63,876 nucleotides of DNA, taken from contig JAFGCN010000010.1 of NCBI GenBank assembly GCA_016932615.1, positions 1 through 63,876 on the forward strand, given 5' to 3'. Numbering within the stretch: the stretch's first letter is position 1; every line of letters begins with the position of its first letter. Source of the stretch: Candidatus Aenigmatarchaeota archaeon. Lineage in GTDB: Archaea > Aenigmatarchaeota > Aenigmatarchaeia > QMZS01. The notes beneath the pieces were generated by a model. The model saw nothing but the letters and a program-made list of their open reading frames with translations, was not told the DNA's origin and searched no databases. Below are positions 40,187 through 42,089 of the stretch, in pieces. A program made the position numbers and the translations under genes.

Positions 40187-40807
40187 TTACTTTTCAAGTT
40201 CATTTTGAATCACCCACTCCAGGTCTTCCTTTCTCAGCCGCCAGGAAAGCCAGGGCCGGACTGCACGGTTGATTGTCTCTCTGGACCTCAAGAAGTCAGA
40301 AAAATTGCTTAAGTCAAGCGGGGAAATGTCGAGAGGTATTTCGCCATGAAGTGAACTCTTTGGGAAAAACATTTCTGTCAGGTCATCATCCACCCTTACC
40401 TCCAGCCCTTTGGAATAGGATGCCTTGGCCATTTTGTCGACGCAGTCTGGGAGGCAAAAACCGCCGATAACAAGAGGGTCAGGATTTATTATCTGCCCCA
40501 AAACATAATCCGGGTCTGCATACTTTCTCTCCTTTATATGTTCCCGGAAAGTAAAGCCGCAGGAAAAGTATTTATCGTCTTCCCTTGCGCCTACATGCTT
40601 GGAAAGGCCCAAAAACTGCGGCTGAGCGAGGTCTTCTTTTTTTCCAAACATAAGCCAGTTTATCCCGTAGCCCTCTTTTCTATACCTGTGGTCTATCAGC
40701 CGCCCCATGTGGGAGTGGTCAGAGGGTTTCTTTCCAAAATAAGCAAGGCGATTGTCTTCGCTCTTGAAATATGCTTTTACAGGGTACATGAAGAGGAGTT
40801 GTTTCAT
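40187..40807 (-). CDS. Isochorismatase-like paralogue A
   Basis: A 206-residue protein, clear paralogue of the gene at 41224: both start MKQ(L/Y)LF, share the (G)R(L/I)ID(H/E)RYRK motif, INW(L/I)MF and DYVLGQ/EYVLGQ. The strongest family hint is VIGGFCLPDCVDKMAKASYS followed by LEVRVDDD, which matches the cysteine hydrolase strand-loop-helix G-x-x-x-x-x-C-V-x-x-x-A in isochorismatases, with the Cys in place. The usual N-terminal catalytic Asp is not evident, so activity is uncertain. Confidence 0.55.
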   Translation of the reverse strand: MKQLLFMYPVKAYFKSEDNRLAYFGKKPSDHSHMGRLIDHRYRKEGYGINWLMFGKKEDLAQPQFLGLSKHVGAREDDKYFSCGFTFREHIKERKYADPDYVLGQIINPDPLVIGGFCLPDCVDKMAKASYSKGLEVRVDDDLTEMFFPKSSLHGEIPLDISPLDLSNFSDFLRSRETINRAVRPWLSWRLRKEDLEWVIQNELEK

Positions 40808-41223: not shown

Positions 41224-41811
41224 CTATTGGCTGTACCGCCATGCCAACCAAGGGCGGCTTAGTATATAATCGGTGCTTAGTCCTGTCCTTTGTGGAATTA
41301 CTCTAGAACGGTCAATCTCCAATTCCAGTTCAACGGGTATCTCTCCAGTGCGGGCGGTTATTCTAAAAAAGGCATCTGTGGTGTCCTCATCAACCTTAAC
41401 TTCAACCCCAGCATTGTGAATCTCTTTTGCCAGGCTATCTACGCAATCCTCTAAGTGAAAGCCTCCTAAAACCAGACTCGTGGTGTTTTTTGGCAATTGG
41501 CCTAGCACATATTCAGAATCTGCTCGGGCTCTATACCCTACATGTTCGCCCCAGGTAACACCTGAAAGGATTGGGTAATCCTCTGGCCTTAGATCCACGT
41601 GTGGAGAAATTCCCGTCATGTCGGGTTCAGAACGATCCCAAATCGATTCGAACATTATCCAGTTTATAGCATAATCCTTCTTTCGGTATCTTTCGTCGAT
41701 TATCCTTCCAATATGGTTTGCATTATAACCATTGCTTTGAAAATTCTTAGACCAATCAAGGCACTGGTCAACAAAGGGCTGTACTGGAAATAGGAATAAG
41801 TACTGTTTCAT
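41224..41811 (-). CDS. Isochorismatase-like paralogue B
   Basis: A 195-residue paralogue of the 40187 gene (shared motifs RIIDERYRKKDYAINWIMF and EYVLGQL). VLGGFHLEDCVDSLAKEIHN and VEVKVDEDTTDAFF again match the cysteine hydrolase pattern with the Cys kept. The TATA region for this gene (41829-41840) is formed by the T-rich end of the tRNA-Leu gene, 28 nt upstream. Confidence 0.55.
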   Translation of the reverse strand: MKQYLFLFPVQPFVDQCLDWSKNFQSNGYNANHIGRIIDERYRKKDYAINWIMFESIWDRSEPDMTGISPHVDLRPEDYPILSGVTWGEHVGYRARADSEYVLGQLPKNTTSLVLGGFHLEDCVDSLAKEIHNAGVEVKVDEDTTDAFFRITARTGEIPVELELEIDRSRVIPQRTGLSTDYILSRPWLAWRYSQ

Positions 41812-41840: not shown

Positions 41841-41854
41841 TGCAGGGGGGGAGA

Positions 41855-41946
41855 CTTTCGCAAAGCAAACTTCAGCAGTAATCTTCCGCGAAGCGGAATC
41901 TGCTTCTTTTTGCGCCTGGGGCTTTTTCTTGCAAGAAAAAGCTTCA
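41855..41946 (-). other. tRNA-Leu intron 2 (T loop, position 59/60), 92 nt
   Basis: A clear bulge-helix-bulge: outer helix GGGAG/CTCCC (exon T stem), central helix TTCG/CGAA, 3-nt bulges AAT and AGT, inner stem GAAGC/GCTTT. Cutting after the second bulge base on each side gives the 7-nt T loop TTCGAAT exactly. The intron holds a second hairpin (CTTTTTCTTGCAAGAAAAAG). Confidence 0.82.
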
Positions 41947-41996
41947 TTCGAACTCCCGAACCGACTAACGGACAGGGTCCTTAGCCCTGCACCTTT

Positions 41997-42051
41997 TTCT
42001 GGAATCCTTTCTTTTGGGGTGTCTTACAAAGTCTTTCCTAAGGAAAGGAAT
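41997..42051 (-). other. tRNA-Leu intron 1 (D loop), 55 nt
   Basis: Between exon 1 (ending GGTC) and exon 2 (starting AAAGG). Exon CTGG pairs with intron CCAG, flanked by bulges TCA(T) and AAA, and an inner 7-bp stem TCCTTTC/GAAAGGA. This is a relaxed bulge-helix-bulge of the sort cut by archaeal splicing endonuclease. Removing it gives a D loop that fits tRNA-Leu. Exact ends may shift by 1-2 nt because of A repeats. Confidence 0.75.
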
Positions 42052-42089
42052 GACCAGGCTTGGCTACCCCTGCATAAAATATACTAGAA

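Follow-up and report, generated by a model that had tools for sequence, protein, structure and literature searches.

The window, a 63,876-nt stretch of DNA that is contig 10 of an archaeal genome (G000; 1.26 Mb, 97% complete, 29-contig assembly), contains a tRNA-Leu(AAG) gene interrupted by two introns. Judged from sequence, this is in all likelihood a functional gene whose introns would be removed by splicing and would both belong to a recently spread family. The anatomy of the gene and its two introns is virtually certain to be real. All of its parts lie on the minus strand. Exon 1 (42052..42073) contains the 5' strand of the acceptor stem, the 5' side of the D stem and the D loop as far as GGTC. 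Exon 2 (41947..41996) contains the 3' side of the D stem, the anticodon arm, the variable arm, the 5' side of the T stem and T54-59, and exon 3 (41841..41854) supplies T60, the 3' sides of the T and acceptor stems and A73. Once spliced, the predicted tRNA is 86 nt long with A73 counted in. It reads GCAGGGG TA GCC AAGCCTGGTCAAA GGT G CAGGG CTAAGGA CCCTG through the anticodon arm and TCCGTTAGTCGGTTC GGGAG TTCGAAT CTCCC CCCCTGC A after it. The acceptor stem, formed between exons 1 and 3, has 7/7 pairs, the anticodon and T stems have 5/5 each, and the variable stem is CCG/CGG. The anticodon AAG (A34 A35 G36; 41980..41982) sits in the loop CTAAGGA (41984-41978). Thus, the gene has what defines a class II tRNA-Leu: a complete cloverleaf, a long variable arm, A73 and a Leu anticodon.

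An earlier sequence-only reading had proposed these three exons, a 55-nt insert in the D loop, a 92-nt insert in the T loop at 59/60 and an 86-nt product, and its coordinates were right to the base. Its perfect acceptor stem was also borne out. The AAG anticodon, the splicing motif of the first intron and the family to which both introns belong had been overlooked.

Because two short introns split the gene, it is hidden from ordinary tRNA finders, as had been predicted for simple scans. ARAGORN found no tRNA in the window, and Rfam did not detect the tRNA-Leu at the gathering threshold or at permissive thresholds around the gene. With a purpose-written finder for interrupted tRNAs, the gene scored 26.2 and nothing else in the window exceeded 22.2; none of 400 dinucleotide shuffles scored 24 or more.

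Both introns are of the non-canonical bulge-helix-bulge (BHB) type, and there is no intron at 37/38, in agreement with the earlier reading. Each motif has a 4-bp central helix and two 3-nt bulges across the junctions. For intron 1 in the D loop (55 nt; 41997..42051), CTGG (42057-42054) pairs with CCAG (42002-41999) at 4/4 positions, with TCA and AAA as bulges. For intron 2 at 59/60 of the T loop (92 nt; 41855..41946), TTCG (41952-41949) pairs with CGAA (41860-41857), also at 4/4 positions, and the bulges are AAT and AGT, exactly as the earlier reading had it. The tRNA splicing endonuclease EndA would cut the pre-tRNA within both bulges of each motif, and the exons would then be joined by an RtcB-type ligase. 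EndA of the alpha4 type is held to require a regular BHB. The intron-side helix of intron 2 appears irregular in the predicted fold, where P1 and P2 give a three-way junction. Among the 55 automatically parsed introns of G000, the central helix reached at least 3.6 out of 4 in 44. A group I intron was considered and rejected, since the introns are too short and have no Rfam match; nothing supported self-splicing.

The sequence-only reading had called two introns in one tRNA with no canonical one uncommon. Within its genome the window's gene is no exception, since most tRNA genes of G000 carry non-canonical introns. The Rfam tRNA model finds 6 genes above the cut-off in G000 and 10 at E<=0.01; for the class members G013, G017 and G018, it finds 31, 41 and 33. 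tRNA genes were sought in targeted stretches, namely weak Rfam hits and the surroundings of intron-family matches. This resolved 39 genes (33 by the finder and 6 by hand) with about 69 predicted introns, between one and four per gene and approximately 1.8 on average. Intron sites are the D loop, 37/38, the variable arm and T-loop positions from 53/54 to 59/60. None of the 39 resolved genes was intronless, though such genes should be the easiest for an Rfam search to detect. At G000:C17:42150-42227 (L008), an intron-free sequence gave a weak tRNA-like hit (28 bits), with a long variable arm and an apparent TTGTCGA loop. Published counts, as far as we found, reach three introns in one gene and, genome-wide, 71 introns spread over 46 genes of Pyrobaculum calidifontis (PMC8450103; PMC3293823). 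Standard tools badly undercount the tRNA sets of such genomes.

The highest number was predicted in tRNA-Leu(TAG) (L089, G000:C18:43625-43962), with four introns, one each at the D loop, 37/38, the variable arm and position 59/60 of the T loop, the exact variable-arm junction being uncertain. In G003, tRNA-Leu(TAG) (L211) has introns in the variable arm and at 37/38. tRNA-Lys(TTT) of G000 (L017, C7 near 126000, minus strand) apparently has two T-arm introns (~53/54 and 59/60) plus one at 37/38, outside the family described below. A tRNA-Ile with the anticodon TAT (L143, G000:C1 near 6220, minus strand) probably has three introns; a review lists Ile-UAU as absent from archaea in general.

The exons and anticodon of the window's tRNA-Leu are maintained in relatives, in which the introns are variable or missing. 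The tRNA-Leu stems covary across the class, and AAG is kept in four of its families. Among the outcomes that would count against it, the sequence-only reading had named an intact second copy together with exons that relatives do not conserve. A search for a second, intact tRNA-Leu(AAG) copy found none, and the exons proved conserved. These data also bear on the idea that this is a decayed gene, broken by small palindromic mobile elements and left unspliced. In favor of decay, related elements do occur outside tRNA genes, between two genes in G000 and next to start codons in both G008 and G011. Against it, relatives retain the three exons, near-perfect stems and the same anticodon, and the BHB motifs of both inserts match their exons. 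Every other resolved tRNA gene of G000 is interrupted as well, and if interruption meant decay, the cell would have no tRNAs. We regard decay as extremely improbable and continue with a functional, spliced gene.

Introns from different tRNAs and different sites of G000 align with one another, and many form one sequence family. Its members have a covarying P1 hairpin, then a CCAAAAGAAAG-like motif and, in most cases, another hairpin. The CCAAAAGAAAG internal loop was also read as a kink-turn, an idea dropped because the pairing fit was inconsistent. The family was found in most close relatives of G000. We built a covariance model, R1, from 13 sequences, the window's two introns included. With this model, intron 1 scores 40 bits and intron 2 scores 57.6 bits at 41900..41946 (minus strand), the conserved core that consists of hairpin P1 (GCTTTTTCTTGCAAGAAAAAGC), with its covariation, and the CAAAAAGAAG motif. 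When the best 150 candidates were scored per genome, R1 gave 60 matches in G000 with E<=0.1 (best 4e-12), some of which read a palindromic hairpin already matched, on its opposite strand. On the same basis, there were 3-13 matches in each of the 10 other family members and 36 in G011, which belongs to another family. Four class members had no match among the best 150 candidates scored in each.

The window's T-loop intron shows about 84% identity with the T-loop introns of three tRNA-Val genes of G000 (TAC, 69/82; CAC, 69/80; GAC, 67/82). Compared with orthologous introns at the same tRNA-Leu site in the family, alignments scored low and identity ranged from 33/45 to 49/62. Introns of different tRNAs within G000 are therefore more alike than orthologous introns are, the pattern expected from transposition, which points to recent spread within this lineage. 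We also considered that the introns are old and inherited, with shared splicing constraints accounting for their likeness. It agrees with inheritance that the T-loop site is occupied in G013 and in all the orthologues examined from the family of G000 (f1). However, constraint of this kind does not sit well with the much greater identity between different tRNAs of G000, and the likeness extends to hairpin sequence with no evident role in splicing. The D-loop intron is also patchy: it is present in G000, G006 and G007, replaced by a short insert in G002 and absent from G001, G003, G004 and G005, while the orthologue in G037 has neither intron. Inheritance without spread is accordingly unlikely in our view.

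Spread into the T loop is easy to explain because the nearly invariant TTCR gives one strand of the central helix; TTCR-YGAA pairing was found in most 59/60 introns. From this anatomy, any intron ending in YGAA-NN would be ready for splicing at 59/60 of nearly any tRNA. Movement may have occurred by reverse splicing and recombination, by gene conversion between tRNA genes or as a DNA element.

A few copies of the family lie outside tRNAs, such as one between two genes at C11:42449 (L086) of G000. Family elements were also seen near start codons in G008 (L070) and G011 (L068), the latter apparently between the genes for ribosomal proteins L22 and S3. Yet another copy directly adjoins tRNA-Cys on its 3' side, in G000 (L096, C27:70786-70960) as well as in G008 (L051). 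The ends of this element in G000 are an inverted repeat, TCAGACC/GGTCTGA.

The earlier reading had called for a three-unit or heteromeric splicing endonuclease. The genome search gave a single alpha-type EndA, encoded within L040 905-1867, with N and C domains (PF02778 and PF01974); its N-terminal tail is long and charged. The best alignment is with EndA of Methanocaldococcus jannaschii (1a79). There is no insertion at the position of the crenarchaeal CSL or the ARMAN-2 ASL, as read from alignments to 1a79, 3p1z and 4fz2. A broad-specificity enzyme of the CSL/ASL, heterotetrameric or epsilon2 kind was therefore not recognised in the sequence, where a very divergent second subunit may be missed. 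In the literature, broad splicing specificity goes with heteromeric or three-unit EndA types (PMC12397907; PMC4090602). Thus, either an alpha enzyme can cope with the motifs of G000 by virtue of their regularity, or the enzyme is broader than that literature would suggest.

We consider it possible, though rather doubtful, that the introns are excised by a heteromeric endonuclease of broad specificity whose second subunit went unrecognised. The irregular inner helices of the introns would suit such an enzyme, and the EndA genes of the class members G013, G019 and G020 have two catalytic-domain matches. EndA of G000 also has a short lysine/arginine-rich insertion before the catalytic His, like that of Nanoarchaeum equitans (3iey_A), but the same insertion is found in class members with ordinary tRNAs, for example G017. 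Besides the empty CSL/ASL position, it counts against a second subunit that no further PF01974 match was found in G000, even at E<=10, and that each family genome has at most one. The single alpha-type EndA is the enzyme we favor.

The anticodon was the second unexpected feature of this gene. Two reviews state that ANN anticodons are missing from archaea (PMC8007984; PMC11066159), and one exception through gene transfer was reported, the tRNA-Arg(ACG) of Methanobrevibacter ruminantium (PMC8450103). In the open-licence literature, we found no earlier report of archaeal A34, or of this intron family in DPANN. We ran a Leu-exon pattern that allows A or G at position 34 over 156 genomes of the class; its reversed control gave 0 matches. 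AAG was present in 30 of the 156 (families f1, f4, f10 and f16) and GAG in 24 others, and no genome had both. Since AAG spans four families and never occurs together with GAG, A34 in this tRNA-Leu is, from the sequences compared, very probably real and long established.

We also weighed whether A34 is an error, or whether the tRNA has ceased to read CUU/CUC, a normal tRNA-Leu(GAG) being encoded at another place in the genome. A heavily interrupted GAG gene could evade searches, CUC is a frequent codon in the window, and AAG and GAG genomes could not be separated by codon usage. Codon usage was tried as a test of A34 and set aside: CTT clearly exceeds CTC in G000 but also does so in the GAG-bearing G011, so the excess is not diagnostic. 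What stands against a second gene is the mutual exclusion of AAG and GAG described above. In addition, a search of the family of G000, its ten other genomes included, with the Leu model gave the anticodons AAG, TAG, TAA and CAA, and GAG was not among them. A conventional GAG gene in G000 thus seems improbable, and tRNA-Leu(AAG) may well have replaced it.

A TadA-like deaminase is encoded in G000 (C9:62873-63313, minus strand; L131 1483-1947), next to a Kae1-like gene. It scores 99 bits against a curated cut-off of 150, and the nearest solved structures are TadA. The gene is missing from most family members, and G000 is the only one in its family with a clear TadA homologue. Nearly all other A34 genomes tested had no TadA match, among them the AAG genomes G013, G020, G026 and G032. 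Decoding through inosine-34 would take an A34 tRNA together with TadA; the A34 seen here may be unmodified, inosine or modified in another way. tRNA-Leu-like exons with the loop CCAAGGA, in which AAG is preceded by C instead of T at position 33, were seen at G016:C90:800 and G142:C10:6068.

Taken together, we think it somewhat more probable than not that tRNA-Leu(AAG) replaced GAG in an archaeal clade, in most genomes tested without a recognisable TadA, and that A34 would read both CUU and CUC, either unmodified or altered by an unknown enzyme. In part of this clade, a single intron family would have flooded the tRNA genes, with the invariant T loop serving it everywhere as the place to land and be spliced.

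Short elements that bear a palindrome and occur as scattered copies are known among the IS200/IS605-derived palindromic elements, and the intron family resembles them in all three respects. Unlike those elements, the ends of its copies fit the host exon, and the copies are mostly in tRNA loops. Multi-intron tRNA genes with intron spread are a known kind of system; new here are the lineage, the very high load and an anticodon unexpected in archaea. In Thermoproteales, multi-intron tRNA genes and intron transposition have been described (Sugahara 2008; Fujishima 2010, cited through PMC8450103 and PMC4090602). Pyrobaculum and its relatives share with G000 the presence of BHB introns at 37/38 as well as at non-canonical positions (53/54 and 59/60 among them), several introns per gene, closely similar introns in unrelated tRNAs and a pattern of spread within the lineage (PMC4090602). 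In contrast to Thermoproteales, G000 belongs to another archaeal lineage, every resolved gene is interrupted, one gene has four introns, its family shares hairpin P1 and CCAAAAGAAAG, and no heteromeric endonuclease was found. The load of approximately 1.8 predicted introns per gene compares with 1.54 in P. calidifontis (71 in 46). ARMAN-1/-2 (Fujishima 2011, cited through PMC12397907) likewise combine a small archaeal genome with non-canonical tRNA introns. They have an epsilon2 three-unit EndA, whereas G000 has a single-unit alpha type without the ARMAN-specific loop. ARMAN may nevertheless belong to the class of G000, as EndA with two catalytic-domain matches occurs in some of its members, a feature that would suggest Micrarchaeia. 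A34 tRNA-Leu(AAG) also replaces G34 tRNA-Leu(GAG) in Leuconostocaceae and other Firmicutes (PMC8007984). Those are bacteria, whereas the present case is archaeal and most of the A34 genomes have no TadA match.

These findings extend large-scale tRNA intron spread beyond Thermoproteales, with a load above the highest that we found reported and a predicted four-intron gene, and the A34 result runs counter to the stated absence of A34 tRNAs from archaea. The genomes also form a series for following intron gain, from intron-poor (G017 and G018) through intermediate (G001-G010) to flooded (G000 and G011). In a scan of genome contigs, a neighboring metallo-hydrolase had only bacterial relatives. Beside the tRNA-Leu gene, the window has two paralogous-looking neighbors without a Pfam match, at 41224-41811 and 40187-40807, whose products begin MKQYLFLFPV and MKQLLFMYPV.
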